DNA of 39,763 nucleotides from a virus, in the IMG/VR virus record IMGVR_UViG_3300023109_000051, positions 1 through 39,763 of that record. One strand, 5' to 3'. Positions 5,630-38,347 of the stretch are shown one piece after another (within the stretch, counting starts at the first letter, position 1; the number at the start of each line of letters is the position of its first letter). A program made the position numbers and the translations under genes. The notes under the pieces are model-generated. The model was given only the letters and a program-made list of their open reading frames with translations. It was not told where the DNA came from and did not search any database.

Positions 5630-8600
5630 TTAAGTACCCCACACAACCGATCCCGCTGCATCCCTAATAATTAATGTTCTGTTCGAAGGATCTTGGTGTG
5701 AACCAATCAACGCACCTCCTGCAAATAGGTTACCATCAGCGGTTATATTTTCTAGATAAAGTGTATCAGCATTGGTATTGTAGAAGAAGTTCTGTTGTGA
5801 ACCAGTATTAGGACCTGTTGTCGCATATACTGTTCTACCACCTGCACCACCAGGCACGAATGTGACAAACATGTTTGATGATTCAAGACCTGTACCATAA
5901 ATGTTATTCACATCTAAAGTAACAGCGGAGTTACCTGGCCCTGCTGGTCCTTGTAGACCATCACCACCCTGTAGACCAATACTACCTGTTTCACCTTGGA
6001 AACCTGCACTACCTTGAACGAAGTCACCCTGATCCCCTTGGATACCAATATCACCTTGGACACCTTGGAAACCTTGTACGCCCTGTACACCAGAAGGTCC
6101 TACACCGACACCACCTTGAGATCCTGGCCCACCTTGCACACCTTGGTAACCTTGTTCACCTTGCGCACCTGAACCTGCAGGTCCTTGCAGACTTTCACCT
6201 GCTCCACCTTGGAAACCTCTAAATCCTTGGAAACCATCTTCCCCAGTACCTGCGGGTCCTTGGAAACCATTATCACCTTGTACACCTTGGTATCCTTGAA
6301 CACCCTGTACACCACCTTCACCAGTACCCGCCGTACCTTGAACACCCTGTGTTCCTTGCGGACCTTGGACACCCTGTGTACCTAAAGTACCCTGTGAAGT
6401 AGGACCTTGTGTACCTTGAGGACCTTGGAAACCTTGCGCAGTACTATCTGCACCTGTTTCACCTTGAATACCCTGCGGACCTTGATAACCTTGGACACCT
6501 TGTCCACCGCCACCACCGTTACCACCTTGGAGACCCTGCACACCCTGTGTACCTTGAGTACCTTGGTTACCACGGACACCAACACCAAATCCACCTTGGA
6601 TACCGCCGCCACCTTGGACACCTTGTATACCTTGAGGACCGATTGGGCCAACTCCACCACCTACACCTTGAGATGTGGGACCTTGGGGACCTTGAAGACC
6701 TTGTGCACCATCTGCACCTTGAGGACCTTGAACACCTTGTCCACCTTCACCGATATCACCTTGGAAACCACGTTCCCCTTGAATACCTGCAACACCTTGT
6801 GAACCAAATCCATCAGCACCTTGGAAACCGATACCACCTTGTGCACCAGCTTCACCTTGGACACCTTGAGGACCCTGTGTTCCCGATCCAGTACCACCTT
6901 GAGCACCGTCACCACCTTGTATACCCTGAATACCTTGTGTACCCTGTTGGGAAATACCTTGAACACCTTGGATACCCTGTGCACCAAATCCGCCTTGGAG
7001 ACCATCAGTACCTTGCGCACCTTGTGTCCCTGCACCTGTTGAACCTGCACGTGAGAATGTAATAATGACATCGTCATCATCAGCAAATCCTGCGGCGGAA
7101 CCACCTAAGTATGCAACATCAAATTCCCAGTAACCAGTTTTATCAGTAACGTCAGAATATTCGAATACAGCGAAAAAGGTTGGATCTGCCTTTTTCATAA
7201 TTTTTATTTGACCTTTGACAAGACCAATAACTGTATCTAATGATGTAAAGTAATTATCTAAGTTGACAAAGTTGTCATCTCTTTCGTCGATCCACATGAA
7301 TGTAGAACTGGACAAAAAGTTGTTGTTAAACTTAACTTTACCAACGCCTGGATCAGAATCAGTGAATGTATCTTCGAATGTGTAATCAAATGATGCACCA
7401 CCGAACGATCCTGAGTCACCTTGGATACCTTGAATACCCTGTGTACCCTGCGGACCTTGAGGACCTTGAGGTCCCAAATCGGAAATATTAAGTAGACCAA
7501 CCATACCACTGTGTAAAGAACACTGGTAGTACAAAAGATCTGGTGCGTTAAATGGAACTCTGAATGTTATCAGACCATTTTGTGCACCATTGTTTGTTAC
7601 ACCACTGTTATATTGGTTACCTGTACCAGTGCCTGGCGCAGTTTTGATAAAGAATGGGTGACCAGTCGCACTTACATCGAATGTGTAAGTGAAACCTCTT
7701 AACAATTGTAGTGATGGGTTATTCACACCATCGATTTGGTATGCAATGTTACCTACATTAGTAACTTCAAAGACACGAGATCCTTCTTGACCCTGTATAC
7801 CTTGGAAGCCTTGATATCCTTGAATACCTTGGAAACCCTGTGTACCCTGTACACCTTGGATCGCCTCACCTTGAATACCTTGGAACCCTTGGAAACCTTG
7901 AGGACCTTGAACACCCTGTATTCCTTGACCGCCTTGCACACCCTGATTACCGAGATCACCCTGAATACCAGTTGTACCCTGTGTACCAGTCGCACCAACA
8001 GGACCCGTAGGGTTGAATGAAACGATTGCAACGTCACCATATCTTGCAGTAGTGTCTAACCATGAGTTAGTGTTTGCACCTGCCGCACCTAATAGTGATT
8101 TTTCAATGAATTCAACATCAAACCAACCATTATCTTCACCACCTTGCGCCCATGTCCAGTCTAAGATAGAGAAAACAAGGAATTCGAAATCATTAGTTGC
8201 AGAATCACGTGGAGTCTGAATTACGATTTCACCTTTAGGACTACCATTAACTCTGTCAATATAGTTGAATAGATCGTCAATACGTCTGTTTGAATCATAT
8301 GGTTTGTCGTCAAACCAGATCTTATCAATGTTAGATACAACTCCTGAACTCGCAACTGTACCATCAACGAGACCAAATTTACCAACGCCTGGGAATGCGT
8401 CACCAGAAATTGGGTTTAATTCCCATTCGAATGTTAGACCACCATAAGTTCCGTCAAAACCTTGTACGCCTTGGAAACCTTGTACGCCCTGTACGCCTTG
8501 AGTACCTTGCAAACCCTGCAAACCAGTGCTACCAGTACCACCTTGCGTTCCTTGAGGACCTTGTCCACCCTGTACGCCTTGAGTACCTTGGTCACCTTGT

Positions 8601-9535
8601 AAACCTTGGGGACCCTGCAATCCTTGTAATCCTTGAGGACCTTGTAGTCCTTGGATACCTTGAATTGCTTCACCTTGCCAACCTTGTGTACCTTGTACAC
8701 CCTGAGAAGCTTGGGGACCTTGAACACCTTGCGTTCCTTGTACGCCTTGATCTCCTTGAAGACCTTGAGTACCCTGAACACCTTGACCTGCGAATGCACC
8801 GTCTGTACCTTGTACACCTTGATCACCCTGCAATCCTTGGGGTCCTTGAGGTCCCTGTAGACCTTGCAAACCTTGAGGTCCTTGAGGACCCTGCACACCT
8901 TGTGTGCCTTGATCGCCTTGTAAACCTTGCGTTCCCTGCGCTCCTTGGATTCCCTGATTACCTTTGTAACCTTGAATACCTTGGAAACCCTGCGTACCTT
9001 GAACGCCTTGTAAACCTTGGAAACCTCTAAATCCACGGAAACCTTGTACACCTTTTTGACCGAGGTCACCTTGTGTACCCTGTACGCCTTGAACGCCTTG
9101 GAAACCTTGTACACCTCTAAATGTACCGATATTAATCCAGTTAACACCGTCATAGATCCAAAGTTCTTCATCTGTGTCATCAATAACACCTTCACCCACA
9201 GAAGCGGATGGGAATGCAGTGTTGAGAGTTGCTTGTGGATCACCACCTGCATCTACATCTGCAACGGAACCAATGATTGTAAAACCAGGACCGTAATCAC
9301 CTTGTAGACCTTGTGCACCCTGTGTACCGTCTGCGCCTTGAAAACCTGTAGTCCCTTGAGGACCAGTACCCATGTTTAACCAGTTAGTACCATCCGAATA
9401 ACGCATTTCTCCGTTATCCGCATAGACAATAGACCCCTCAAAGGGGGCTGGATCAAGGGTAATAGGGAACGCTTGTGGTATCCCTTTCCCTAGTGTGACT
9501 GTGCCACCTCTGAAAGACTTAAACCTAGTCGACAT
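5630..9535 (-). CDS. Collagen-like fibre protein with Gly-X-Gln triplets and embedded globular domains (1301 aa)
   Basis: Probably a trimeric fibre. N-terminal residues 1-56 contain EMRYSDGTNWLNMG, a tail-fibre-like motif. Collagen-type Gly-X-Y tracts follow at about 57-82, 140-365, 510-585, 687-710 and 836-1200. Gln dominates the Y position (GVQGTQG, GPQGLQG), with short register breaks such as QGPQASQG and GEAIQG. Between the tracts sit a globular domain at 366-508, a cupredoxin-like domain at 586-686 (His626, Cys672, His675, Met678) and a second copy of the first domain at 715-830. The C-terminus (1201-1301) is globular and may seed trimerisation. The ATG is preceded by GAGGAA and overlaps the 151-aa gene by 11 bp, suggesting coupling. 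Collagen-like fibres are known in phages; a copper-site module inside one is odd. Confidence 0.93.
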   Translation of the reverse strand: MSTRFKSFRGGTVTLGKGIPQAFPITLDPAPFEGSIVYADNGEMRYSDGTNWLNMGTGPQGTTGFQGADGTQGAQGLQGDYGPGFTIIGSVADVDAGGDPQATLNTAFPSASVGEGVIDDTDEELWIYDGVNWINIGTFRGVQGFQGVQGVQGTQGDLGQKGVQGFRGFRGFQGLQGVQGTQGFQGIQGYKGNQGIQGAQGTQGLQGDQGTQGVQGPQGPQGLQGLQGPQGPQGLQGDQGVQGTDGAFAGQGVQGTQGLQGDQGVQGTQGVQGPQASQGVQGTQGWQGEAIQGIQGLQGPQGLQGLQGPQGLQGDQGTQGVQGGQGPQGTQGGTGSTGLQGLQGTQGVQGVQGFQGVQGFDGTYGGLTFEWELNPISGDAFPGVGKFGLVDGTVASSGVVSNIDKIWFDDKPYDSNRRIDDLFNYIDRVNGSPKGEIVIQTPRDSATNDFEFLVFSILDWTWAQGGEDNGWFDVEFIEKSLLGAAGANTNSWLDTTARYGDVAIVSFNPTGPVGATGTQGTTGIQGDLGNQGVQGGQGIQGVQGPQGFQGFQGIQGEAIQGVQGTQGFQGIQGYQGFQGIQGQEGSRVFEVTNVGNIAYQIDGVNNPSLQLLRGFTYTFDVSATGHPFFIKTAPGTGTGNQYNSGVTNNGAQNGLITFRVPFNAPDLLYYQCSLHSGMVGLLNISDLGPQGPQGPQGTQGIQGIQGDSGSFGGASFDYTFEDTFTDSDPGVGKVKFNNNFLSSSTFMWIDERDDNFVNLDNYFTSLDTVIGLVKGQIKIMKKADPTFFAVFEYSDVTDKTGYWEFDVAYLGGSAAGFADDDDVIITFSRAGSTGAGTQGAQGTDGLQGGFGAQGIQGVQGISQQGTQGIQGIQGGDGAQGGTGSGTQGPQGVQGEAGAQGGIGFQGADGFGSQGVAGIQGERGFQGDIGEGGQGVQGPQGADGAQGLQGPQGPTSQGVGGGVGPIGPQGIQGVQGGGGIQGGFGVGVRGNQGTQGTQGVQGLQGGNGGGGGQGVQGYQGPQGIQGETGADSTAQGFQGPQGTQGPTSQGTLGTQGVQGPQGTQGVQGTAGTGEGGVQGVQGYQGVQGDNGFQGPAGTGEDGFQGFRGFQGGAGESLQGPAGSGAQGEQGYQGVQGGPGSQGGVGVGPSGVQGVQGFQGVQGDIGIQGDQGDFVQGSAGFQGETGSIGLQGGDGLQGPAGPGNSAVTLDVNNIYGTGLESSNMFVTFVPGGAGGRTVYATTGPNTGSQQNFFYNTNADTLYLENITADGNLFAGGALIGSHQDPSNRTLIIRDAAGSVVWGT
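5936..9118 (-). repeat. Collagen-type Gly-X-Gln repeat tracts at DNA level
   Basis: The plus strand shows hundreds of CCTTG-based 9-bp units (for example CCTTGAACA, CCTTGTACA), which encode Gln-Gly-X on the minus strand. Tracts lie at about 8441-9118, 7781-8008, 7406-7477 and 5936-7030, interrupted by three unique domains. The 9-bp periodicity creates long open frames in other frames and strands that are not genes. It could also promote slippage or recombination between tracts. Confidence 0.9.
7478..7780 (-). other. Cupredoxin-like domain with amicyanin-type copper-ligand loop, in the collagen-like protein
   Basis: Residues 586-686 of the 1301-aa protein. The stretch includes GHPFFIKT, GTGTGNQYNSGVTNNGA and YYQCSLHSGMVG. 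His626, Cys672, His675 and Met678 match the His...Cys-x2-His-x2-Met ligand pattern of type-1 copper proteins; the short Cys-x2-His-x2-Met loop is as in amicyanin. There is no signal peptide, and the domain sits between two collagen tracts. Copper binding is inferred from the motif only. Confidence 0.7.
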
Positions 9536-9992: not shown

Positions 9993-12900
9993 TTATACTA
10001 CAGCTCTTGAGTTCGAAGCACGTCTTGCGAGTTTCCGAACCGAAGATGTAAATGGTCGACCTTCGATACGACCTGTTCTACCGTTAATTCTCAAACCTCT
10101 TGCGAAGTATTGGTTATTCAATTCGTCTGCACCAGACCATCTTACACGACCACCGTCTTCAGAAAGAACCGAAGAAATCGCAGACGTTGCAGGTCCGAGG
10201 TTTCTAAAGTTCAATGGCAACGCAGTTCTGTTAACACCTGCAGCACCACCGTTGAACTGGTGTGCGATTGATTCAACAAGTGAACCGAATGTCAACACGT
10301 TTGGTCTCAAAATGTTGTCTTTTAGACATTCATTAAACAAGATCTCAATAAATGAACTATGCAGTGCATCTGGTGAGTAGTTCGCAATGATAAAGTCTCT
10401 AATTCTATCCCATGTTGCATAGAATGCATAGAGAAGATCAGTATTGTTTGCGCCATCATCGATCCATGCTGAACCGTTCCAATAGTATATAGTTCCTGCG
10501 TAGAAGTTGACATTAGTGTCAGTAGAAACAATATATGCGTGGTTCTTTTTCAAACTTACGTTTGGATCTGACTGCAACGCATTACGTGCAGAGATATCTG
10601 GAACCACTCCTTTGAAAGACAACCCAGATGTTGTAGAATTGAACACTGGGAACACATGTTGACCTTTTTGGTCGAAGAACGATTGCGAGAATGTTCTTGT
10701 TGCTTTTGTTGAACCCCTTTGATTAGTGTTCGGATTTATGAATTTAACATCATTCACAATAGTCTGCAACAAGTTACCTGCGTCACGTCTTGTCAAATTA
10801 ATATCAATAAACTTATAAGTTGCGTTAACAAATCTTACTGTATCATACTGAAGAGGACCACGTTTGGATAGTAGAATATCTGCGGCATCTCTAAATGGTT
10901 TTTCAACCCAGTCATAATCAGGTGCAATAAGTGTTTGTAACTCTTTTACATCTTTATTTATCTGACTTAGATAAAACATTCCTGCGAGTTCTTTAACTTT
11001 AGTTGATTCTGCTTCTGTTGCAGTATCAGCTTTTACAACTTGTCCTTCGTACTCACCCTGTAGGATATCCGCACAAATTACACCAAGTTGACGATAAGAC
11101 TTCGCAGTCGCTTCACGTTGGTCTTCTGGGATACGATATACTGAGTTCCAGAAATAGAACTCTGCATTCCAACGAGAAGCAGTGTTACCACCGTAGTTCA
11201 AGTCATATGAGAATGCGTCAATAAGGTATCCTGTATCACGACGACACTTAGATTTGTTATAGTCAAGTACGTTGAACTCAGTATTGATGAAGTGAATAAG
11301 ATCATCTGCAAGTTCTACTTTACTTTCTTCGATCTGATCAAATGCATCCTGTAGATCTCCACCAATCCATGTCATGTTTGGTTCGACCAATGCAGGGATA
11401 GGTGCAAGACTATCTTCACGAATGACATCTTCAACGATACCAATCAAGTTCTGTACTTCTGTACCTTCGGTAACACCTGCGGCAGTACCAGAGAAGTCTT
11501 GCGCAGTTGTAGTGAATGTTGTATTCTGAGTATCGATCTCTTGAACGATGTTACCCATCAGAACTTTCATAGTGTTGTAAACATCTGCAGTTTGTCTGCG
11601 AGTATCTTGTGGTAGTACAGACACACCGTTTTCAAAGTAAATCTGTGCAGAGATACGAGATGCGTGGTTTGTTTGATACTGAACATCGTGTGATGTGGCA
11701 TCAATCAAGAAGCCCATGTCACGACGACACTTGTTACGTGGGAATGATAAACCATTCCACTCACGAGATACGTAGTCTACGATTTCATTTGCGAGTGCAA
11801 CACTATTGTCTTGGATCAATGATTTTGCGTCCAAGTAGTTTGTAGGTGTCCATGACACATCTGGTGAGATACGTGCAGGGATATTTGAAACATCTGTATC
11901 ATCTACTGCGTTTGCAACGATCATTGCGAGATCCAATGCGTAACCCATAAGGTCTTTACGTTCTGGATATACTGCAGGTAGATGACGTTTGTCCTGATGT
12001 ACCAAGTTACCTTGAACCATCTGAACCGCATCGTTTACTGCAGATACGAATGTGTGTACACCGACATATCTCTCAACTTTACCAACTTGCATAGTGATTG
12101 TATCATCAGATACTGCAATAATCTCTACTGGTTTATTGAACCATGGATCTACTGGACGTGGGTGAGAAATGTTAACACTTGGGACACCACAAGAGAATGT
12201 GATACCGTTCGTTGCGAACAATGCACCGTCACCAACGTTGAACTTGTGATTTACACCAACATTTACAGTAAAGATACCACTTTGTGGATCGTAAGTTGCA
12301 CCAGTCGGAGTATACTTGACACCTTTTTGGATTGTTGGAGTTACATCAGTACGTGTAAGTACTGTTTCGATTGTTTCTCCAAGGTGCATGAATGCACGAC
12401 GAGTTGGTTCACGTTGACCAAGTGGTAGAATGTTAATTGCATTCTCAAAGTAGATCATTGCGTTTTTGTGAGTTGCAGAGTTACCATCGTATTGGATATC
12501 GTGAGCAATACCATCGATGATAGCACCCATGTCACGACGACACTTGTCTTCTTTATATGCAAGTCCGTTAAACTCTTGTGCAATGTGTCCAAGGATTGCA
12601 GACTGCATTGTAGGTGTTTTTGTTTTCAGAAGTGTACCCTCTGTTGCATATACACTAGTTTTTGGTTCTACAGATGCAGGAAGTCCTTCTAAGTTGTCAG
12701 CAGCGATTGCTTCTGCAACAATTTCCATAAGAGTTTCGGCTCTTGCACCAGTTGCAGCATCTGTCGCAACACCAGACACATCCTGTGCGACTGCGTTACC
12801 AAGTGATGGAGTATTTGCAATATTCTGAACACAGTTGTCTGCAAACTCTGCAAGTCTTTGGAAGACTGCGGCAGTTTGTGCACGTTGACCTGCAGGAAGA

Positions 12901-15900
12901 ACACTACCTGCACCTTCGAAGTACAATCTTGCATTAGACAATGCGGCAGTGTTACCACCATGTTGAAGATCGAATGAGATTGCATCAACCAAGTGACCAA
13001 CATCTCTTTCACACTTCGCAACATCGTAAGACAATGATGGGTATGTAAGTGCAATGAATGCAGTTGCTTCTGCAGCAAGGAAGGATTTGTTCAGTTGCAG
13101 ATTAATTCTTGCATTAAGACCTTTACCATCAATGAAGTTATTAGTACCATCAGAGTAATCGATAGTTTCAATTTTTCTGACCGCTTGTTCATCTGCACGT
13201 ACGAATGTGTGTGTACTTGTGTATCCACCTGCGTTACCAACATTAACTGTGATTGTTGAATCAGTCACGGCAACGATCAATTGTTTTTTCTCATATACAT
13301 TAACATCAGAGATACGTGGATGTGCAAGTTCAATTACGTCTGAAGTTGCAGTATTCACACAAGACAATGTAATTGACTCTGGTGAGAACATGATGTATTC
13401 ACCTTGAACGAAGTCGTGTTCACCAATTGTGATGTCCATGAACCCTGATGTAGGATCGTAATCAACACCTGTTGGAGTATAACCTTTTGCCATACCGTCT
13501 ACGAGTGTATCAAATGCAGATTTTACAAGTAATCTAGCTTCTTCATTAGTTACTAGTTTCTCTAATTCAGACTGGATGTAACGTACACCACCGACTGTTT
13601 CAGATAATTCACCCCAACGAATTGCATTTGTACCTGCAGTACTTGTACGATAAGACGCACCTGCATATACTGAGTTGAAGTTAGAACCAGTGATTAAGTC
13701 ACGACGAACTGCATCGATGATATAACCTGTATCTCTGAAACACTTGTCACCATCGTATGTGAAGTATTCATCATTCAAGTATGCAACAACCTCTTCAATC
13801 AAGAACTTACGGTTTGCAGCGATTTGATCACGTGCGAATGTACGTAGTGGATTGTATGTTGGTGCATCAGCAATTGCAGGAATGTTTTCATTTGTACGAT
13901 CATCTGCAATGTTTGCGATAACTGTAATAAGATCTTGTACACGTTGTGCAGTTTGAACTGAAGCAGCAGTACCAGACTTGTCTTGTTTCAGAATGTTTCC
14001 TGTAACTTCTTTGACACTATTTGAAACTGCACTTACAAAAGTATGCGCACCTGCGTATCCGTCTGGGATTGTGTATCCAGTAACAGTGATGAAATCACCA
14101 TCTACTTGAGTAATCTTAGTTGGTTTCTCGAATGCAGGGTCTGTTGGACGTGGATGTGAAATTTGTGTCACAACACCTGTCGCAGTATTTGCACATGAGA
14201 ATGTGAGTGCATTCTCATCGAACCAGATGTAATCACCAACTTGTAGAGCGTGAGTACCAATATCAAGTTTCAGTGTACCCTGTGCGACATTATAGTCTGC
14301 ATCTGTTGGGGTAAAGGCACTTGGCCCGAAGTGAGGTGTCACTGTATTTTCGAGTACAACACTTTCTGCAGATGCAGCGAGGTGCGTGAATGCGGCACTT
14401 GTAGCATCGTACTGATAAGATGGAAGTAAGTTGATAGAGTTGATGAAGTATGCACGTGCAGCTTTCACTGTCGCTTCATTACCACCGTACAGAAGATCTT
14501 CTGTTACTGCATCAATCAGATATCCACTGTCACGAATACACTTAGACTCTACGAAACCAATACCATTGTACTGTTCGTTAATGTAAGTTGTGATCTCTGT
14601 TTGTAATTTCTCTGTAAGACCATTGATAAGTGAAGACGCATCTTTGAATTCTTGTGCGTATCCAGTTTCACCTGGCCCAAATTCGAATGGTGAGAATTTG
14701 TATGAAGGATCATCCATTTCAGGACCACCCACATTGTAGGATAGAAGTCCAGATTGTGCACCATCGATACCACCAGAACCACCTCTTACAACAGCTTCAC
14801 GTGCAGTAGATCCACCACCAACGATTGTACCTTTTGCGGCACTTTCGTAGAATGGAGTACCAATATCATTTGGTTCGACTACTGGTGGAAGGTTAAGTTG
14901 TTCATCTTCTACACTGTCTGAAACGATGTTGATCAAGTCTTCTACTCTTTGACCCATAAAGTCAGAGAAGTATTTCTTGACTGCATTTGCAGTGGCAGAG
15001 ACAAAAGTATGTTCCTCTTCGTATCCACCTGCATCACCAACATCCATTGTAATTGTGTTTGCAGTTACTGCAAGGATTTTGTGTGGTTTCTCATATGCAG
15101 GATCTGTAGTACGAGGATGTACGATATTTGTAACTGGATCACCACATGACAATGTGATTGACTCAGGTTCGAAGATCATGTAATCACCGATTGCGAAAGA
15201 GTGAGCAGCACCCAGATCGATTTTCATGATACCAGAAACTGGGTTGTAGATCGCATCAATAGGTGTATATTCTACATTAGTCCATGCTACTGGTGTTTCT
15301 ACGTTACCAGTTGTTGGTGTTACAGTCTCGTTACGTGCGAGTTTCTTCGCAACATTCGCAATGTGTTGGAATGCTTCTGCAGTTGGTCTTCTTTGATTGT
15401 AAGGCAATACAGTAATTGCGTTTTCAAAGTAAACTTTTGCGTTATTGATAGATGCAACGTTTGAACCATGTTGAATGTCATATGAGACAGAGTCAACGAG
15501 GTAACCAACATCACGTGGACACTTAACACCAACACTCTCTGAGTTTGGATGATTAATGTTCAACCATGCAGTAACTTCTGCTTGTAAGAATGCTTTGTTG
15601 GACTGAAGGATACCACGAGTGTTCAATGCATCGTTAGACACATATGAGTCACCGAAGTTGATTGCATCTGCGGCACTTGTACCGTTTGTGATGATGTCAA
15701 TCAGTTCATCGAAAGATGCTTCTGCACGTGTTCTTGCAGTACCTGTAAGATTTGAAGATACTTCACCTTTTAACCATGTGAATGCACCAGTTGTTTGTGT
15801 CAACTGTTCTTCTACAACTGCATTTGCACCTACAGTACCAGAACGATATGCAAGTCCACTGAATACAGCGTTATAGTTAGAACCAGTAAGAACATCACGT

Positions 15901-18900
15901 TTGACTGCATCAAGCATCAAACCTGTGTCTCTTTCACATTTTGCACTGTCGTAGATGAAGTAAGTATCTCTTAGATATCCTACAACTTCATTTGCAAGGA
16001 ATGCACGGTTTTTCTGTAGTGTTGTTGCAGTGTTGACTTCGTCTGTATTAGACCTTAAGATTGCCAATGCATTGTCTGCACAACGGATGAATGTGTGAAT
16101 ACCACCTTGACCGACACCTACATTAACCTGAATTGTATTGATATCAGGTGTTGCAGTGATTGCAAGTGGAGTACGATATGGTGGATCTGCAGGACGTGGA
16201 TGCGAGATCTCTTGTAGATTGTTGTCAGAACCACATGTGAATGTGAAAGATCCAGGCATCAGTTCTACACGTTGACCTGCACTCAAACCATGACCTGTAA
16301 TAGTCATAGACATGATACCAGTTGCGGTATTGTATGCGACACCTTCAGGAGTTTTAAACTCTTTGTACATTGCAGGATCTGAGAACCATACAACATCGTC
16401 ACGGATACAACCTTCTGCGGCACTTACGAATGTGTGTGCAGTACCACCTGCATAACCACCTACGTTAATAGTGAATGTGGTTTCTGTTGCAGCTTTGATC
16501 TTAACTGGTTTTTTGTTCCAAGGATCTGTCTTACGAGGATATGCATGTTCAGTTACATTACTGTCCAATGCGCATGTAAAGACGATACTCTCTTCTTCCA
16601 TTTCAATATACTGACCAAGTTCAAGATTATGAACACCAACAGTAACAACCATATCACCTGTTGCAGGATCGTATGTCGCAGTTGTTGGAGTGTATGTTTT
16701 CTTACGAACATCATAGTACACTGAAACTGCATTCTCGTCTGCTTTGTAGAATGTATGTGGTTGAGTGTAAGAACCTGCGGAGCCTGGGTTCACTGTGATT
16801 GTTGTCAATCCAGTTGCAAGGATCTGCATTGGTTTTTTGTATAGTGGGTCTGTACGATTTGGGTGAGACTTGATACCTTGATCACATTCGAACTGGAATG
16901 AGTTAGGTGCAAGAAGTACCTTATCATCTGTAGTCAAACTGTGAGTACCGATGGTGATAACCATTTCACCTGTAACACCATTATATGTTGCAGTCGTAGG
17001 AGTATAAGCACGACCAGAACCATTCATGATGTGAGTGATTTCGTCAAACGCAGCGTCTGTTTTCATTGTTACAGAACTATCGTTTGCAAGGAGATGTACA
17101 CCATCACCTCTACCAGACACCCAAGTGTGAGCACCAGTGTAACCACCTGCATCACCACTGTTGAATGTAATAGTGTTTACAGTAACTGCAGTGATTGGGA
17201 TTGGTCTATCGTTAAGTGGATCTGCAGGACGTGGGTGAGAAATCTCTACCACATCTGAAGTTGCAGTATTAACACAAGAGAATACCAATGCTTCTGGTGC
17301 AAGTTTGATTGAGTCACCGACTTCAATGTCGTGTTGACCAATAGTAAGAACTGTTTCTCCACTTAATGGATCATATGTACCAGTTGTTGGAGTATATTTT
17401 GCAGATGCAAGTGAACTTACCTGACGTTTTAGTTCTTTTACAGAACCAACAGTTTCTGGTAACTGATCACTAATAACTTCTTTTGCATTGTTTGTGTGAT
17501 ATGCAATACCAGTTTGAACTGAGTTAAAGTTAGTTCCAAGGATCATATCTTGGTTTACTGCAGGAAGAATATATTCTTGAACGTCACGTAGACACTTATC
17601 ACTGGAGTAGATAAAGAAGTTAGTATCGATCCAACCTAACATGTAGTCTTGGATGTACTTTCTGTTTGCCTGAAGTTGTTTACGAGCATTCTTCTTGTCT
17701 GCACTGAGAGTTGGTGCATCACTGAATGTAATACCTCTAGCAACCACTTGAACTGCATTGTCCAATGTACGTTGATATGCATGGACACCAGTGTAACCAC
17801 CTGCGTCACCTGAGTTAAAGGTAATTGTCTTAGGTGTTACTGATTCGACTTGCAATGCATTCTTGTACCACTTGTCAGATTGACGTGGATGTGAGATTTC
17901 GATAATCTCAAGAGTTGCAGAGTTTGCACAACTATATGTCAAACCGCCTGGTGCGATTTCAATCATATCACCAACTTTGATGTTATGGTTTACATCAAAT
18001 GCGATTAGTGTTTCACCAGATACTGGATCATATGTAGAACCAGATGGAGTCCAACAGTTTTCTTCAAGACGGACACAGTCTGCATCCGCACTTACGAATG
18101 AATGAATACCCAAGTATCCACCTGCATTACCAGCCATAACTGTAAATGTTGTTTCTGTGACTTCAATAATTGGTAGTAGACGGTTCGCAACTGGATCAGT
18201 TGTACGAGGATGAGTAATGAAACCTTTGTTTGGAACACACTCGAAAGTGATACTATCTGTTTCAATAACAACTTTTTGATCTACTTCAAGACGGTGAAGA
18301 CCAACTGTTACTTCCATAAGACCAGAAATTGGATCGTATTCTACATGAGTAGGTGAATATGTGTAACGTTTTTCTTCTAATGCGTCAATAATGTTGTCAA
18401 ATGCGACATCAGCACGTTGAGAACCAAGGATAGAAACACCATCGATAACTTCGTTGGTCTGTTCTTTCAGTCTCTTGTATGATGCAATTGTTTCGTCACG
18501 TTGGTTATTGATAACCTTTGCGGCAGCGTTCATATAGTACGCATTACCTGCAGTAACGGAGTTGTAGTTTGTATCAAGTAACATGTCATACTTGACTGCA
18601 GGAAGGATATAATCCTGTGTATCACGACGACATGTGACACTGTTATATGCAAAGAACTCATCGTTATCTTCGATCCAGTCGATTAACTCGTCTTGGATGA
18701 ACGAACGATTGTCCTGAAGTTGTTTTCTAGCTGCAGTGTATTCGTTAGAAACTTCATTGTTAGAAACTTCTGTCCAAATGATTGGACTTGCATACTCTTC
18801 ACCGTTCTCAAGAATATTCAAGAGTTCGTCGTAAGAAGTGTTTGCACGATCTAGGATTTCTGAGTTCGCATTACTGAAGATACCTTCAATTTTACCTTGC

Positions 18901-21479
18901 AAGTAACGGTTCGCACCTAGTGTTTCTGTCAACTGTTCGCCAGGCACAACATAGGAGATTGGTGAACGGTATGTAATACCAGACAAACGTCCCCAGTAGT
19001 TTGAACCAGTTTGAATGTCTTGTCCAATTTTGTCAATGATGATACCACTGTCACGGTAACATTTTTCTGCGTCATATCCTTGATATCCAAGTCCACCAGA
19101 AGCAGTATTAGATGTCAGATAATCAACCATGTCATCGATGATGTTGTTCGCATTCGAAAGAATGGTATCACCGAACGCAGTGTTACCACCACCCATTAAT
19201 GAAGTGATTGGCGTAGCGGTATCTTTTGGTGCGTAGAAGGTTGTAGTACCTTTCGCTCTCATGGAGATGTCACCAAACTGAGTACCAGAGTTGTTGAGTG
19301 TAACCTGTCCACCGTTCAATGCGTAGAACGCACAACGTGTAAAGATTGACAATGAACCAATACCGTTAACACCTGCACCATCACGTGCAACGTAACCGAT
19401 ACCGTTCTGTGTACGAGGTGTGAAACCAAATGTCAAGATATATGTGTAGAGTGAGTCTGGGTCAAGAACACGTCTGTCTGCGAGCACACAACCACCACCA
19501 CGTCCAACAAGTGGGTTCGGGAAGTCGTCTATACCAATGACTGCAATGTTACCTGTACCACCTGATTCTGAGATGATTGTGTCACCTACGTTGATGTCAC
19601 CTTTAAGGTTACGAACATAGATACGATCTTCTGTAGCAACGTCAAGATCCCAAGAGATAACACCTGTCGCACCAGAACCGAAAGTAACTTCGTCAAACTC
19701 AATAAAGTCTCCTGCGTGACCAACTTCCATGAAGATCTCACGACCAAGGTCTGCTAGTGTGCCTTTAGAGTTGAATGGTTGCAGCGGGGGTTCTACATCT
19801 GCACGAAGGAAGTTTGATAACTGTGAACTGTCACGAATATATGGCGAACGTCTCATTTTTGCGCCTGGGCGATATGCAATCGCAAAACCACCTTCTGGGA
19901 AGTCGAAGTTGTCTACTTTCCAGTTAGTGTATGAGAAACCTTGTACGTAACAACCAGATCCCACTAGGACTGCGTTATTAAATTCATATCCAGGCAACGC
20001 TTCGATAACTGTTGCATACTGACCAGAGGTAGATGTCAATGAACAATCGTCTGGGAGTGCAACACCACCTTTAGTATAATAGGTTCCAGGCCCACATGAG
20101 ATGTGAACCGCATTGTTTACGTCATTACGAGAGTAAACACCACCTGCTTTTTCAAGTGCGATTTCCGCACCACGTTCTAGTGTGCGTACTGGTTGAAGAA
20201 CGGTGCCTGGGTTTCTGTCATCACCAGAAGACGCTTCAACGTGTACCTTCAGAGCCTTTGCAGTAGATCTTGAGATCTCATCAAAGAATTGACGGTATGT
20301 AATTCTTTCTGTTTCACCAGTTTTAACATTCTTCAGTGCGAAGTACGAGTCTTCCTCAATACGTGGTTCAAACGCTTTGGTAAGATCCATATCGAAGTCT
20401 GCAAGTTCAGAGTTCTTAATGTTTGCATTACTGATATCGGTCTGTTCAATCGAACCACCTTCCATCCGAGATTCGGAGATACCAGTGTTAGACATTGTAG
20501 ACGACGAGATAATCGCATCATTCAATGTGATGTCAGTTAGTTCACCAGTGAAAGATGAGTTAGCAATGACACTGTCTTTGATAAGACCACGATCAATAGT
20601 AGTGTTGGCAAATACGTTATTGTTACCAGTACCATTATTGAATGCAGAGTTTTCGATAGTGATATTGTTTGCAGTACTATCGAAGATCTGACCATCTGAG
20701 AAAGTAGATGTCGTTATCGTAATATTATTCGCATCAGAATTGCCAATGACACCGTCATTAAACTCTGAGTTGTCAATATCGATGTTGTTTGCAAAACTGT
20801 CATAAAGTTCATTATTCGACAATATCGAATTGGTGATCGTCATGTTGTTTGCAACGGTATCTAAGATAGTACCGTTAGAGAATAGTGATTCGCTGATGTC
20901 TAAATTTTCACCAGTAGAGTCTCTGAGTGAACCATTTGAGAAATCTGAGTCTGTAATGATTAGGTTGTTTGCAGTCGAGTCTTCAATAACACCGTTTGCA
21001 AAAGATGAATTAGTAATTTCTGATTCGTCAATCGTACCATTTGCGAAGGATGTGTTAGTGATTTCACTCTCATCGATAAAGGAGTTGATCAAGGTAACGT
21101 TATTACCTGACACTGTCTCCATAGTACCGAAGTCGAAAGAAGAGTTTGTGATCTCTACATTATTTGCAGTACCATTATCGAAAGAAGAGTCATCAATATC
21201 TGCACGATTAATGTCTGTATCATTAACAGAACCACGATTGAACTCGTTATCGTTCATTACGTTGTCGTTAATGATGTTCTCAAAGATAGTCGTGCCAGTA
21301 ATCGACCCACCAGTGATGGTGATTCGATCAAATATTTCGTACTGAATCGCTTGGACGAGTTCTTTTCTGGTAATGTTCTTTGTACCGTCATCACCTTGTA
21401 CAAGGTTTACGATGACGAATAGGTCTTCCGTTCTAGTATTTGCACCAGTAATCGAACCTAATTCAGAAATTTTTGACAT
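9993..21479 (-). CDS. Giant modular virion protein (3828 aa) with alternating alpha and beta repeats
   Basis: One uninterrupted frame, probably the largest virion component. Residues 1-50 (SKISELGSITGANTRTEDLF) look like a virion-attachment N-terminus. Residues about 50-370 are Asn/Ser-rich with pentapeptide-type 20-residue repeats, suggesting a beta-helix. Residues about 395-790 resemble a pectate-lyase-type beta-helix region (SSGDDRNPGTVLQPVRTLERG). From about 800 to 3570 two module types alternate: 12 helical modules with a KC.RD....DA...D...G.N core, the last degenerate, and 10 beta modules with YTPT.A.YDP.SG, a Cys, then HPR..DP and GGY...HTFVSA. The C-terminus (about 3590-3828) is unique and ends basic (VRKLARRASNSR). 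A late-promoter-like AATAAATA lies 33 bp upstream, and AAGGTAG is the ribosome site. I infer a host-contacting fibre or tail appendage; no catalytic site is seen. Confidence 0.92.
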   Translation of the reverse strand: MSKISELGSITGANTRTEDLFVIVNLVQGDDGTKNITRKELVQAIQYEIFDRITITGGSITGTTIFENIINDNVMNDNEFNRGSVNDTDINRADIDDSSFDNGTANNVEITNSSFDFGTMETVSGNNVTLINSFIDESEITNTSFANGTIDESEITNSSFANGVIEDSTANNLIITDSDFSNGSLRDSTGENLDISESLFSNGTILDTVANNMTITNSILSNNELYDSFANNIDIDNSEFNDGVIGNSDANNITITTSTFSDGQIFDSTANNITIENSAFNNGTGNNNVFANTTIDRGLIKDSVIANSSFTGELTDITLNDAIISSSTMSNTGISESRMEGGSIEQTDISNANIKNSELADFDMDLTKAFEPRIEEDSYFALKNVKTGETERITYRQFFDEISRSTAKALKVHVEASSGDDRNPGTVLQPVRTLERGAEIALEKAGGVYSRNDVNNAVHISCGPGTYYTKGGVALPDDCSLTSTSGQYATVIEALPGYEFNNAVLVGSGCYVQGFSYTNWKVDNFDFPEGGFAIAYRPGAKMRRSPYIRDSSQLSNFLRADVEPPLQPFNSKGTLADLGREIFMEVGHAGDFIEFDEVTFGSGATGVISWDLDVATEDRIYVRNLKGDINVGDTIISESGGTGNIAVIGIDDFPNPLVGRGGGCVLADRRVLDPDSLYTYILTFGFTPRTQNGIGYVARDGAGVNGIGSLSIFTRCAFYALNGGQVTLNNSGTQFGDISMRAKGTTTFYAPKDTATPITSLMGGGNTAFGDTILSNANNIIDDMVDYLTSNTASGGLGYQGYDAEKCYRDSGIIIDKIGQDIQTGSNYWGRLSGITYRSPISYVVPGEQLTETLGANRYLQGKIEGIFSNANSEILDRANTSYDELLNILENGEEYASPIIWTEVSNNEVSNEYTAARKQLQDNRSFIQDELIDWIEDNDEFFAYNSVTCRRDTQDYILPAVKYDMLLDTNYNSVTAGNAYYMNAAAKVINNQRDETIASYKRLKEQTNEVIDGVSILGSQRADVAFDNIIDALEEKRYTYSPTHVEYDPISGLMEVTVGLHRLEVDQKVVIETDSITFECVPNKGFITHPRTTDPVANRLLPIIEVTETTFTVMAGNAGGYLGIHSFVSADADCVRLEENCWTPSGSTYDPVSGETLIAFDVNHNIKVGDMIEIAPGGLTYSCANSATLEIIEISHPRQSDKWYKNALQVESVTPKTITFNSGDAGGYTGVHAYQRTLDNAVQVVARGITFSDAPTLSADKKNARKQLQANRKYIQDYMLGWIDTNFFIYSSDKCLRDVQEYILPAVNQDMILGTNFNSVQTGIAYHTNNAKEVISDQLPETVGSVKELKRQVSSLASAKYTPTTGTYDPLSGETVLTIGQHDIEVGDSIKLAPEALVFSCVNTATSDVVEISHPRPADPLNDRPIPITAVTVNTITFNSGDAGGYTGAHTWVSGRGDGVHLLANDSSVTMKTDAAFDEITHIMNGSGRAYTPTTATYNGVTGEMVITIGTHSLTTDDKVLLAPNSFQFECDQGIKSHPNRTDPLYKKPMQILATGLTTITVNPGSAGSYTQPHTFYKADENAVSVYYDVRKKTYTPTTATYDPATGDMVVTVGVHNLELGQYIEMEEESIVFTCALDSNVTEHAYPRKTDPWNKKPVKIKAATETTFTINVGGYAGGTAHTFVSAAEGCIRDDVVWFSDPAMYKEFKTPEGVAYNTATGIMSMTITGHGLSAGQRVELMPGSFTFTCGSDNNLQEISHPRPADPPYRTPLAITATPDINTIQVNVGVGQGGIHTFIRCADNALAILRSNTDEVNTATTLQKNRAFLANEVVGYLRDTYFIYDSAKCERDTGLMLDAVKRDVLTGSNYNAVFSGLAYRSGTVGANAVVEEQLTQTTGAFTWLKGEVSSNLTGTARTRAEASFDELIDIITNGTSAADAINFGDSYVSNDALNTRGILQSNKAFLQAEVTAWLNINHPNSESVGVKCPRDVGYLVDSVSYDIQHGSNVASINNAKVYFENAITVLPYNQRRPTAEAFQHIANVAKKLARNETVTPTTGNVETPVAWTNVEYTPIDAIYNPVSGIMKIDLGAAHSFAIGDYMIFEPESITLSCGDPVTNIVHPRTTDPAYEKPHKILAVTANTITMDVGDAGGYEEEHTFVSATANAVKKYFSDFMGQRVEDLINIVSDSVEDEQLNLPPVVEPNDIGTPFYESAAKGTIVGGGSTAREAVVRGGSGGIDGAQSGLLSYNVGGPEMDDPSYKFSPFEFGPGETGYAQEFKDASSLINGLTEKLQTEITTYINEQYNGIGFVESKCIRDSGYLIDAVTEDLLYGGNEATVKAARAYFINSINLLPSYQYDATSAAFTHLAASAESVVLENTVTPHFGPSAFTPTDADYNVAQGTLKLDIGTHALQVGDYIWFDENALTFSCANTATGVVTQISHPRPTDPAFEKPTKITQVDGDFITVTGYTIPDGYAGAHTFVSAVSNSVKEVTGNILKQDKSGTAASVQTAQRVQDLITVIANIADDRTNENIPAIADAPTYNPLRTFARDQIAANRKFLIEEVVAYLNDEYFTYDGDKCFRDTGYIIDAVRRDLITGSNFNSVYAGASYRTSTAGTNAIRWGELSETVGGVRYIQSELEKLVTNEEARLLVKSAFDTLVDGMAKGYTPTGVDYDPTSGFMDITIGEHDFVQGEYIMFSPESITLSCVNTATSDVIELAHPRISDVNVYEKKQLIVAVTDSTITVNVGNAGGYTSTHTFVRADEQAVRKIETIDYSDGTNNFIDGKGLNARINLQLNKSFLAAEATAFIALTYPSLSYDVAKCERDVGHLVDAISFDLQHGGNTAALSNARLYFEGAGSVLPAGQRAQTAAVFQRLAEFADNCVQNIANTPSLGNAVAQDVSGVATDAATGARAETLMEIVAEAIAADNLEGLPASVEPKTSVYATEGTLLKTKTPTMQSAILGHIAQEFNGLAYKEDKCRRDMGAIIDGIAHDIQYDGNSATHKNAMIYFENAINILPLGQREPTRRAFMHLGETIETVLTRTDVTPTIQKGVKYTPTGATYDPQSGIFTVNVGVNHKFNVGDGALFATNGITFSCGVPSVNISHPRPVDPWFNKPVEIIAVSDDTITMQVGKVERYVGVHTFVSAVNDAVQMVQGNLVHQDKRHLPAVYPERKDLMGYALDLAMIVANAVDDTDVSNIPARISPDVSWTPTNYLDAKSLIQDNSVALANEIVDYVSREWNGLSFPRNKCRRDMGFLIDATSHDVQYQTNHASRISAQIYFENGVSVLPQDTRRQTADVYNTMKVLMGNIVQEIDTQNTTFTTTAQDFSGTAAGVTEGTEVQNLIGIVEDVIREDSLAPIPALVEPNMTWIGGDLQDAFDQIEESKVELADDLIHFINTEFNVLDYNKSKCRRDTGYLIDAFSYDLNYGGNTASRWNAEFYFWNSVYRIPEDQREATAKSYRQLGVICADILQGEYEGQVVKADTATEAESTKVKELAGMFYLSQINKDVKELQTLIAPDYDWVEKPFRDAADILLSKRGPLQYDTVRFVNATYKFIDINLTRRDAGNLLQTIVNDVKFINPNTNQRGSTKATRTFSQSFFDQKGQHVFPVFNSTTSGLSFKGVVPDISARNALQSDPNVSLKKNHAYIVSTDTNVNFYAGTIYYWNGSAWIDDGANNTDLLYAFYATWDRIRDFIIANYSPDALHSSFIEILFNECLKDNILRPNVLTFGSLVESIAHQFNGGAAGVNRTALPLNFRNLGPATSAISSVLSEDGGRVRWSGADELNNQYFARGLRINGRTGRIEGRPFTSSVRKLARRASNSRAVV
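10700..19070 (-). repeat. Alternating alpha (x12) and beta (x10) module array in the giant protein
   Basis: Alpha-module anchors (K-C-x-R-D codons) fall near 19055, 18630, 17590, 15935, 15518, 14537, 13738, 13010, 12537, 11726, 11242 and 10788; the last lacks the Cys. Beta-module anchors (HPR or its variant) fall near 18207, 17887, 17234, 16861, 16538, 16198, 15115, 14152, 13318 and 12160. The order is a-a-b-b-a-b-b-b-b-a-a-b-a-b-a-b-a-a-b-a-a-a. Module copies are clearly diverged, so duplication is old, although some DNA blocks such as the GTCACGACGACACTT core recur nearly unchanged. Confidence 0.82.
20622..20981 (-). repeat. Six tandem 60-bp repeats (20 residues each) in the giant protein's N-terminal region
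   Basis: Each unit is exactly 20 residues, of the form DST-A-N-N-x-x-I-x-x-S-x-F-x-N-G-x-x. Examples are DSTANNLIITDSDFSNGSLR and NSDANNITITTSTFSDGQIF. The pattern equals four pentapeptide-type rungs and is preceded by two 15-residue units (IDESEITNTSFANGT and IDESEITNSSFANGV). A regular right-handed beta-helix is the likely structure. Confidence 0.8.
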
Positions 21480-22463: not shown

Positions 22464-22663
22464 TACTTATTTTCCAATTTAGCTATTCTCTCACACATAC
22501 TTGCGAGAGAGTCTTGAATGTCTGCAACATCTATAGAAAGTTGATCAACTTTTCTGTATAATTGTCTTTCCATCTTATATTTATTCAGAGCTGTAGTATC
22601 AGTAGACAAAACTGCATTAGAATGTCTATCCCTAGTCATTTCGCTTGCAGGTTTACGTGTCAT
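22463..22663 (-). CDS. Small coiled-coil protein (66 aa)
   Basis: No named family recognised. The N-terminal 25 residues are polar, and the rest forms a heptad-like helix (MERQLYRKVDQLSIDVADIQ ending RIAKLENK), suggesting a short coiled coil. The ATG overlaps the stop of the 1814-aa gene as ATGA, and its TAA overlaps the ATG of the S74 gene as TAATG. This nested start-stop arrangement strongly supports it as a real, translationally coupled gene despite its size. It has no strong ribosome site of its own. A trimerising linker or assembly factor for the S74-bearing fibre is plausible but unproven. Confidence 0.8.
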   Translation of the reverse strand: MTRKPASEMTRDRHSNAVLSTDTTALNKYKMERQLYRKVDQLSIDVADIQDSLASMCERIAKLENK

Positions 22664-25600
22664 GTCAATGCTATGCCTCTATAATCTTTCACCATTGGTG
22701 CGTCATACACATTTGGTGACAATAATTCGATACGTACCGCAAACTTTCGGTACGACTTGAAGGTTCCTGCGCTACTCACGTATTGATAAACACCAAGTCC
22801 ATCTTTGTTTGCGGCAGCGATTCTATATCTGAATTCACGATAATCATCTAAGTTTGTTGAAGACGAATATGTCTCAACACCTTCAAATAATTCCATTTCC
22901 ACCCAAGGAACATCTGCGAAGTCTTGACTATCGAAAACGTTCTGTGCACGAATGTAAGTTTTGATAGTTGTACCGACTGGTCTGTGTGCGGTCAAAATCA
23001 AATTAAAGTCCTCAGCATCAAAGTCTTCTGCAAGTTCTACTGTCTTAGAGACAAACCCTGCAGAGTTGTCTGGTGTGTTCGTTATATCGTATTTATAGGC
23101 CATCAACTTAGCAACTTCAAGATCCACAAATGGACTTGATGTAACGTTACCACCATTGGTCATATTTACCGTAATATCAAACGCAAGACTACCGTTCACG
23201 TTACTTGATCTACTGTATATAATTGCACCCTGTGCGTTGAAGTTGTTGTTATCATTAAACTTCATGGGCATACTATATGTAGTACCAACGTTGGCTGGTG
23301 GGATGAACACACCAGATAGTGAAGTTTTCGTTACACTATCGTTAATACGATTAATGAATGGTTGCACATAACTTAAGTTCATGTTATCAATACTTACGAT
23401 ATCTGCAGTAGATCCAGAGTCCACACCTTGTATCGTACTACCGTTAGAGAATACCACTCCTGATCTCGCAGTAGACCCCTCTAATATCATCTCTGTTGGG
23501 TTCGTTGGGTCATAGTGGATCAAAGTACCTGCAACCACAGGAGTACCCTGTGCACCTGTCCATAGGTCTGTTGCATCCTTGTTTGTTGTGATTGTTTGTG
23601 AATCAACCGCAACAACTTCGAAAACATCTAGGTATGAAGTGTTCGATGATAGGTTAACTTTGATAAAGTCACCAACTGCATATATTGTATCGAAGTTCGC
23701 ACCACTGGATCTTGTAATTACATTACTTCCGTTTGGCATACCGATAGTTTGAACTGAACCTGTATCTTGGAAGATTTGTTCACCAACTGAGAACGGACCT
23801 GCGATATCTGTGATTGTAAAGAACTCATGATCACGGTTTGTCATTGTGACAGAACCTGTAGACTCGTTGAAGTCATGACGGTAAATTCTAAACTTAATAT
23901 CTTCGTCTTGGTATGATTTCCACGCAGAGTTGTTTGTAGATGTGAATAACATCCCATCACCCCAGTCTTGAACAACTGGTTTACCTTGTGTCGCACCAGG
24001 CGTTAGATCTTTCTGACCAACTTTTGATGTGAAGGCAAGATAGCCTGGATCGTTCGCATCTGGTTCAATTACAAATGCATATTCTTTTTCAGTTTCAAGT
24101 GCAATCGGTGCATCAAATTCAACTGTTGTTGCGGCACTTGCATCATCTGAGATATTAACTTCACTAGCTTCTAGGTGAACTTGAGAGAATGGAATAACTT
24201 CTGATGAAGGGTATCCATTGATAACTTCACGCAACATAACAGTGACACCGTTAATACCACCACCACCTGCGATGGTAGATGTTGATTTACGTTTGAAATA
24301 TAGATCTAATTTAGATGCAAAGACCGTATTACTTCCACGTCCCATACCTTTCTTAATGAAGAAAGTCTGCGCAAGAGGATCACCACTGTTATCTCTTGGT
24401 TCTGGTGGGGGTGGTGGACGGAAGGTCACACTGCGAGTAGATGTTGATGTTGAGTAATCAACTGTAGGCATACGTGTTGACATACTTGATTTTGTTACAT
24501 CAAAGTTATATGCAGAATATTTCAGTTTACATCTTGACGTACCTGCAGAATTTCTTGCAGAGTACTGCTGAACGTCTAGGATTTGTAAATCTCTTTCACC
24601 AACAAGGAATTTTTCTGCAGGCAATTTGAAGACTGCACGTAAAACACCATTGGCATCTGTGGAGATTGGTGCGCCAAATCTACCTTGTCGACGTACCTTA
24701 CTGATTTTGTTTACTGTAGTACCATTACATACATGCTCATCTACGTTTACTTTATCAAAGAAGAAGTAGTGTTGAGTATTCGGTCTCAATCCAGATACTA
24801 AGATCTTGATGTCAGTAGAAGCCATGTAAGGTTTGAACTGGAAGTTAGATACAAAGTCACCAACTTTACTGGTTTCTGTACCACCTTCAAATTCAAGATT
24901 ACCAAATGTGTCAGTGAATGTTACTGTACCACCATTTGAACGTGCACGGCGCATCTGTGCTTGTATTTCTGCACTAAATTGATTTGTGTTAATTCTTGCA
25001 TCTGTCATAGGAATGAACTTCTGCAATGCTTCTGCGAAATCTACGAATGGTTTTTCAAAATCAATCTCAATTGGATTGGTTGTTGTGTCGTATGCAGCTT
25101 CGTATTGTGGTCTAATGTACCCACGACCACGATAGTTATAGAAGTTAGATACGCAGTTTCTGTATCCTGTTGCATACTTCTGATTAATGATAGACACGTG
25201 GGCGTTACGACTTAATGTTGCAACGGCAGGTTCTTCAGTAGCAGACGGTGCAGGGAATGCAGTCGCACCTGATGAAGTCTTGTACTTAAGATCTAATGGG
25301 AATGTTGTAACTGCAGGTGTCATTATTTTCTTAGAGAAGTGCACTGCAGAATTAAACTTTGGATCTCTTGTGTTTGCAAGATGCATGTCATTAAATGGAT
25401 CTACAATAAATCCATTCTTAAATCTTGACAATCCGTTCTCGTCAAGAACAGTCATGTTGTTTGTTTCTTGTTCCAACTGGTTCAATGATGTATAGTATAC
25501 CAGTTTATCCAGTCTCTTTTCGATATTTTCGATGTCTTTCATCGTATATCGTTTAATGCCTTTTGATTTCGCACGTACTGCGTACTCACGTTTACCTTGT

Positions 25601-28104: not shown

Positions 28105-28116
28105 TCTATCTCTTCC

Positions 28117-29754: not shown

Positions 29755-29785
29755 TGTATCTCTCTGTTTTTCATATTTCTCATAA

Positions 29786-29793
29786 TATTTATG
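29786..29793 (-). promoter_or_regulatory. T4-like late promoter candidate (CATAAATA)
   Basis: Read on the minus strand, in the 42-bp spacer between the S8 protease gene and gp8, 31 bp before the gp8 ATG. It differs from TATAAATA only at the first base. It would drive gp8, the DUF4815 protein, the 66-aa gene and the S74 gene. Confidence 0.65.
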
Positions 29794-29796
29794 GTG

Positions 29797-31689: not shown

Positions 31690-31690
31690 T

Positions 31691-32950: not shown

Positions 32951-32979
32951 TGAAAGTACCTTCCTGAAGTGTTTTTAAA

Positions 32980-32987
32980 TATTTATG
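32980..32987 (-). promoter_or_regulatory. T4-like late promoter candidate (CATAAATA)
   Basis: Read on the minus strand. It overlaps the stop codon of the 987-aa gene and lies 29 bp before the ATG of the 419-aa gene. It differs from TATAAATA only at the first base. It would drive the 419-aa gene and the S8 protease. Confidence 0.65.
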
Positions 32988-33306
32988 TTACTGTGATTGT
33001 GTTGTTCATCGATCCATGGACAGAACACTGATAATAGTACACGCCTGCAATGGCAGTCCACTCTAAGACTGCACCACCTTGTCCTGTGACGTTTGGTACT
33101 TGATTACCTGTCCCACTTCCTTGAGATGTTTTCAAGTAGAATGGGTGAGAGGTTTGTGTCCCACTGTCGATAACAAATCTAACCTTATCACCTACATTAA
33201 ATGTGAGTGGTGGTTGTGCGGCAGGTAGAGTAAATACCGCACCACGATGTGAACCAGTCATGACATAATCAAATACAGGTGTCGATACACCAATTATATA
33301 ATCTGG
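32983..33306 (-). other. Cupredoxin-like domain at the C-terminus of the gp7-like protein
   Basis: Residues 881-987. The stretch includes PPLTFNVGDKVRFVIDSG, SHPFYLKTSQGSGTGNQ and YYYQCSVHGSMNNTITVT. His934, Cys974, His977 and Met980 supply all four type-1 copper ligand positions with an amicyanin-type Cys-x2-His-x2-Met loop. The codons for the loop lie at about 33005-33030. It is the closest relative in the window of the module at 7478-7780. Confidence 0.72.
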
Positions 33307-35946: not shown

Positions 35947-35949
35947 TTA

Positions 35950-38336: not shown

Positions 38337-38347
38337 ATTTCTTTTCC

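Follow-up and report, generated by a model that had tools for sequence, protein, structure and literature searches.

Domains related to phycobiliproteins in a giant, putative fibre protein of a T4-like marine myophage

The helical (alpha) modules of a 3828-aa phage protein are, with very little doubt on profile and model evidence, homologous to the phycobiliproteins, the globins that bind bilin in the light-harvesting antennae of cyanobacteria. We regard this homology as established; the sequence and structure evidence, obtained separately, agree. The protein is best read as a long, modular fibre that a T4-like marine myophage carries in its baseplate/tail region, with tandem biliprotein-type domains that are probably loaded with bilin (rough probability 0.55). 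Why phages carry genes for bilin synthesis and bilin lyases is an open question, and the module fibre is a concrete candidate acceptor. The bilin-binding globins would also gain a viral branch through these modules, which provide a lead on the light-dependent adsorption of cyanophages.

Architecture and genomic setting of the giant protein

The window, i.e., the whole stretch of DNA analysed, is an IMG/VR virus contig of 39.8 kb, and megablast of its DNA against phage records gave no match. The protein matches phrog_701 (virion structural protein), phrog_5342 (tail fibre) and phrog_4527 (short tail fibre). Its neighbours are baseplate and tail genes, thus we place it in the baseplate/fibre block; a protein bearing an S74 chaperone is also encoded near the giant gene. 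The gp7-like ORF of the window is separate from the giant; T4 gp7 and gp12 occur as names in some annotations. Downstream of the giant gene lies a collagen-like fibre gene (5630-9535; 1301 aa with GxQG repeats), and a short stretch is common to this fibre and the gp7-like protein. The modules were located with profile HMMs built from the protein's own repeats, and the features of the window are as follows.

9993-21479 (-), giant modular fibre / virion structural protein, 3828 aa (ORF; phrog_701, phrog_5342 and phrog_4527 matches)
20350-21479 (-), N-terminal region, ~residues 1-377, starting KISEL..GANTRTEDLFVIVN, then NSSFxNGT-type repeats
19200-20349 (-), region of ~residues 378-760 with HVEASSGDDRNPGT..., by eye a putative beta-helix start
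18840-19172 (-), alpha module 1, Cys807 (HMM)
18408-18731 (-), alpha module 2, Cys950 (HMM)
18072-18359 (-), beta module 1, Cys1081 (HMM)
17751-18053 (-), beta module 2, Cys1184 (HMM)
17373-17687 (-), alpha module 3, Cys1296 (HMM)
17097-17396 (-), beta module 3, Cys1402 (HMM)
16725-17006 (-), beta module 4, Cys1532 (HMM)
16404-16694 (-), beta module 5, Cys1636 (HMM)
16065-16355 (-), beta module 6, Cys1749 (HMM)
15714-16031 (-), alpha module 4, Cys1848 (HMM)
15300-15620 (-), alpha module 5, Cys1987 (HMM)
14979-15269 (-), beta module 7, Cys2112 (HMM)
14322-14639 (-), alpha module 6, Cys2314 (HMM)
14013-14315 (-), beta module 8, Cys2429 (HMM)
13518-13835 (-), alpha module 7, Cys2580 (HMM; modelled with a phycobiliprotein fold)
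13179-13481 (-), beta module 9, Cys2707 (HMM; modelled as an all-beta domain; missing from L091, L095 and L098)
12792-13112 (-), alpha module 8, Cys2823 (HMM; modelled in tandem with alpha 9)
12321-12638 (-), alpha module 9, Cys2980 (HMM; modelled in tandem with alpha 8)
12024-12314 (-), beta module 10, Cys3097 (HMM)
11508-11828 (-), alpha module 10, Cys3251 (HMM)
11025-11345 (-), alpha module 11, Cys3412 (HMM)
10617-10886 (-), degenerate terminal alpha module 12 with LTRRD, without Cys (HMM)
9993-10616 (-), putative C-terminal region, delimited from the sequence
22660-39706 (-), baseplate/tail neighbours: gp25, gp6, gp7-like, gp9-like, fibre, gp8 and a DUF4815 protein

The N-terminal repeats are weakly pentapeptide-repeat-like (PF13599, E 5e-7, under its cut-off). 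The 11 full alpha modules scored 123-144 bits each and the 10 beta modules 120-143 bits each, and the full modules follow one another as AAbbAbbbbAAbAbAbAAbAA (A, alpha; b, beta). The first-pass annotation had counted 12 helical and 10 beta modules; the beta count was exact, while the helical count resolves into 11 full modules and a degenerate one at residues ~3531-3590 (9 bits), in which LTRRD replaces KCxRD and the cysteine is thus lost. The cysteine said to mark each module was present in 21 of 21 full modules, and the HMM module order bore out the run of four consecutive beta modules at 17.4-16.1 kb.

Close relatives were gathered with gp8 and with the giant protein as queries. The module order of the window recurs in L088 (97% identical) and L089 (100% identical), two contigs of separate metagenomes. 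Since independent metagenomes yield near-identical contigs with one and the same order, an assembly artefact, which had been named as a possible refutation, is ruled out as the source of the repeats. Gain and loss of domains, proposed earlier from the irregular order, is supported by relatives that range from all-alpha proteins with nine or ten alpha and zero beta modules (L099, L100) to one with 12 alpha and 15 beta modules (L103). L091 reads AAbbAbbbbAAbAbAAAbAAA and, like L095 and L098, is without the beta module at 13.18-13.48 kb. The view of the protein as one of the largest virion components went too far, as there are relatives with 6180, 6405 and ~6930 aa.

Conservation of the modules and their relationship to phycobiliproteins

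Modules from the window, from its relatives and from cyanophages were clustered at 70% identity, and conservation was scored on the resulting 72 alpha and 46 beta modules. The cysteine proved conserved well beyond the window, being present in 72 of 72 alpha modules at a mean pairwise identity of 28% and in 46 of 46 beta modules at 41%. The only invariant alpha columns are this Cys, the Asp three residues on (72/72), a Tyr and one edge column, and the Arg of CXRD is found in 92%. Among the cyanophage alpha modules (n=28), Cys and Asp are each kept in 28 and the Arg at Cys+2 in 16, its replacement in ~40% of these 28 giving sites such as CxDD and CKTD. The mean number of cysteines is 1.15 per alpha and 1.24 per beta module. 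Hits without Cys were fragments or the terminal alpha module only. The latter reads LTRRD or KTRRD in every orthologue examined with its flanking residues kept, and because the surrounding sequence is retained in all orthologues, the fold tolerates the loss of the cysteine. The beta modules share invariant Tyr, Gly, Cys, Pro and His residues and a second His at 98% (46 modules). Of the beta motifs read from the window, HPR is looser than described (His 65%, Tyr 28%; Pro 100%; Arg 78%) and GGY is variable, while the His of HTF stands at 100%. One alpha module at L098:17672-18487 is without the D...G-x-N part (KQSGSIAGAQ) and retains CxRD and the invariant Tyr.

A PF00502 search of the window alone gave no match, so tests at the profile level were needed. 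Profile A1, built from 44 alpha modules, retrieved phycocyanin alpha chains first among PDB sequences (R-phycocyanin alpha, E=2.7e-4), followed by dozens of biliproteins, and the alignment sets the module Cys on Cys84, where the bilin is attached, and K-C-x-R-D on K83-C84-x-R86-D87 of CpcA. With profile A7 of 28 cyanophage modules, phycocyanin was reached at E=2e-7 and biliproteins made up 60 of the 60 hits among those listed. The window-only profile of its own 11 modules gave a weak match (E ~0.65), and in a mixed alpha-beta profile (A3) the phycocyanin signal was lost (E 0.66). When all Pfam families were scanned without preselection, PF00502 (Phycobilisome) matched 8 of the 44 A1 modules and 15 of the 28 A7 modules (best 1.4e-5) and was the sole family with more than one module matched, each other family having one. 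Its gathering threshold of 22.2 bits was reached by no match in the window and was not seen to be passed by any A1 or A7 member in tables that give E-values; judged by sequence, the alpha modules are distant relatives and not canonical PF00502 members.

A CpcA+CpcB alignment was built from cyanobacterial genomes, and profile-profile comparison with it by hhalign scored 51.4 for A1, 64.1 for A7 and 39.7 for the 11 modules of the window. The 50-60 column-permuted controls had a mean of 11-12 (sd ~2, max <19), the reversed target gave 13.5 and the beta modules scored 8-11. The sequence match to phycobiliproteins spans ~55 columns and the remainder rests on the fold. The alignment to CpcA begins at residue 40, and tandem modules leave no space for X-Y; the alpha modules thus seem, on balance, best explained as globin domains that span helices B to H and lack X, Y and A at the N-terminus.

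AlphaFold models were made without templates from alignments that held only the window and metagenomic relatives. The alpha 7 + beta 9 model reached a pLDDT of 90 and the alpha 8 + alpha 9 tandem a pLDDT of 87. The alpha module was predicted to take the phycobiliprotein fold and beta module 9 to be an all-beta domain. Foldseek against the PDB retrieved for alpha 7 + beta 9 the bilin domain of ApcE (rmsd 2.8 A over 118 columns), allophycocyanin, phycocyanin and phycoerythrin, with probabilities up to 1.00, and for the tandem phycoerythrins and haemoglobins. The E-values were modest, 0.004 and up, apart from one hit below 0.001. This hit, the S-layer protein SbsC, was rejected, as an rmsd of 15.6 A and a TM of 0.25 amount to no real superposition.

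The combined sequence and model evidence points to the alpha cysteine as the chromophore-attachment position of a phycobiliprotein-type globin, a fourth option beside the metal binding, interchain disulphides and fixing of the fold named in the first-pass annotation. Phycobiliproteins (CpcA/CpcB, Apc, Cpe; PF00502) and the ApcE bilin domain share with the phage modules the globin-type fold and a C-x-R-D site in register, whereas the phage modules, as known here from sequence and models, are without the helices X, Y and A of the alpha-beta interface and stand in tandem in one giant virion chain. They thus differ from strict light-harvesting phycobiliproteins, which have X-Y-A helices and an alpha-beta protomer. 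CXRD is the bilin site of both phycobiliproteins and BBAGs, the bilin biosynthesis-associated globins, of which the tested ones bind bilin without lyase (PMC10151467). Compared by description only, BBAGs resemble the phage modules in being globins, in having CXRD and in their link to genes for heme oxygenase and bilin reductase, but they are small cellular proteins. Since the alpha modules stay under the Pfam cut-off and are not strict antenna phycobiliproteins, we file them as a distant and apparently undescribed branch of the bilin-binding globins. No report of biliprotein-type domains in a phage was found in the literature of open-licence papers, the coverage of which is incomplete.

Occurrence among phages and bilin genes

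Searched by tblastn with a single alpha module, 50,697 phage records included 194 with a hit, all of them named Synechococcus, Prochlorococcus, cyanophage or marine. Whole-record profile searches found modules in S-RIM50, ACG-2014h, S-SSM4, S-SM1, P-HM2, Syn9, P-SSM4, S-PM2, S-H9-1, S-CAM1, Syn1, ACG-2014f and S-CREM1, and found none in T4, KVP40, Pelagibacter HTVC008M, phiM12, Cr30, Ochrobactrum OC, P-SSP7, P-SSM2, S-CREM2 and BUCT-ZZ01. Several giant proteins of cyanomyophages, i.e., T4-GC969 (S-SM1 SSM1_102), T4-GC734 'short tail fiber' (S-PM2, Syn1) and phrog_701/5342/4527, carry the same alpha modules and several also beta modules, but module number and order differ from the window protein and other domains lie between. 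They are annotated as structural or tail-fibre proteins, and no biliprotein domain is recognised in those records. The window protein belongs with these giants (phrog_701, T4-GC969/734) by its shared modules and its tail/baseplate location. SSM1_102 of S-SM1 (6180 aa, T4-GC969) contains alpha modules and was detected in purified S-SM1 virions (PMC3037559), and this homology supports the earlier assignment of the window protein as a virion component. In the S-PM2 record NC_006820.1 (L302:8449-13276), sixteen tRNAs are annotated inside the giant fibre CDS, where ARAGORN finds none; it places the tRNA cluster at L302:3275-5195, and the record coordinates are probably wrong.

In PMC3037559 the role of cyanophage pcyA/pebS is called a mystery and that of cpeT is described as unresolved, and PcyX is described as known only from phages (PMC11480375). 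In two relatives of the window (G002, G006), a heme oxygenase gene and, immediately after it, one for a PcyA/PcyX-type bilin reductase adjoin gp32 (L188:4437-5689 and L187:7855-9210); both relatives are without psbA in the available sequence. These cassettes are of the same kind as the hemO-pcyX cassettes of uncultured aquatic phages, for which the consulted portion of that paper names no acceptor protein (PMC11480375). The gp32 region is present in 2 of the 12 relative contigs and both carry hemO and the reductase; to give the co-occurrence of cassette and modules as 2 of 12 would be misleading, because the region is missing from the other ten and only two contigs are informative. Sixteen further contigs with the reductase and without modules are likewise uninformative because all are without the gp8 region.

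S-PM2, S-CAM1, Syn1 and ACG-2014h carry cpeT, a homologue of T-type bilin lyases, on the strand of the module fibre and 2-4 genes upstream of it. In S-H9-1, tblastn located an unannotated cpeT homologue upstream of the module fibre (MW117966.1, 32002-32511(-)). P-HM2 has cpeT and a bilin reductase, with its module proteins at other locations. The proximity of cpeT is an association and may reflect one ancestral arrangement. The coupling of bilin genes and modules is not strict, because P-SSM2 has pebS and S-CREM2 an S-type phycobiliprotein lyase (L186:1377-1829), yet no alpha modules were detected in either. No heme oxygenase or CpeT gene was seen in the 39.8 kb window. psbA was present in 0 of 12 window relatives versus 4 of 4 cyanophages tested; CpeT and psbA are both missing from the examined contigs of the window's clade, so its host may lack bilins.

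Possible working of the fibre and alternative readings

We propose that phycobiliprotein-type alpha modules would be threaded in tandem with beta modules interspersed, the Cys of K-C-x-R-D lying at the position of the thioether to a linear tetrapyrrole and the Asp and Arg at bilin-holding positions. The fibre would be assembled in the host cytoplasm, and in cyanobacteria the host could supply the bilin, or the phage heme oxygenase and bilin reductase could do so in some relatives at least. Attachment to the CxRD cysteine might proceed without a lyase, as in BBAGs, or via a lyase such as phage CpeT, and the bilin-loaded fibre would then be incorporated into the virion. For a covalent bilin on the alpha modules, which is predicted, we see about even chances; bilin occupancy and lyase pairing are both what we infer.

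Several alternatives have to be weighed against this reading. In the main rival, a bilin-binding globin gave rise to the alpha modules, which are now pigment-free rod blocks with Cys, Arg, Asp and Tyr kept for core packing or for the fit to a neighbour. Such a spacer would agree with the modules of phages whose searched sequence shows no known bilin gene, with the bilin genes of the module-free P-SSM2, with the missing helices X, Y and A, the match beginning only at CpcA residue 40, and with the variable Arg at Cys+2 in cyanophages. It is harder to reconcile with 72 modules at 28% identity in which invariance is confined to Cys, Asp, Tyr and one edge column, and with a fold that, by the terminal module of all orthologues, where alone the Cys is lost, tolerates this loss; the bilin genes and the restriction to cyanophages are left unexplained. 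We therefore consider it a serious but minority possibility.

The proposal closest to the first-pass annotation, i.e., that the cysteines of alpha modules, beta modules or both are interchain disulphides or metal ligands fixing the fibre, appears improbable. One Cys per module with few others would suit it, and so would the Cys and the two His (100% and 98%) of the beta modules, which are compatible with a Cys-His-His metal site, but the alpha Cys coincides with the residue to which a homologous family attaches bilin, and disulphides are less expected in a protein made in the cytoplasm. That the phycobiliprotein likeness is a chance resemblance of helical domains is highly unlikely. The weak window-only profile and some unrelated helical proteins in the fold lists speak for it, whereas independent profiles, the Pfam scan, the profile-profile controls and two template-free models agree with one another, with the functional Cys in register.

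Returning to the bilin-loaded fibre, the role of a pigment as a rigid cofactor, a light/oxidant shield or a sensor for light-dependent adsorption is speculative. It is conceivable, if rather doubtful, that the fibre is pigmented with about eleven covalent bilins per chain, made by phage or host enzymes and attached with phage lyases, that hemO, pcyX, pebS and cpeT serve virion building and not the host antenna, and that the chromophores could sense light for adsorption. Light-dependent adsorption was reported for several cyanomyoviruses (PMC2984593), and darkness prevents the adsorption of P-HM2 but not that of P-SSP7 (PMC7112961); in our profile search P-HM2 has modules and P-SSP7 has none. 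This comparison of two phages from different families is no evidence of cause, and host physiology is the obvious alternative.

In the beta modules, which lie between 12024 and 18359 of the window, the Cys together with the invariant and the near-invariant His may form a metal site, and either a metal or a structural role of the beta cysteine is possible.
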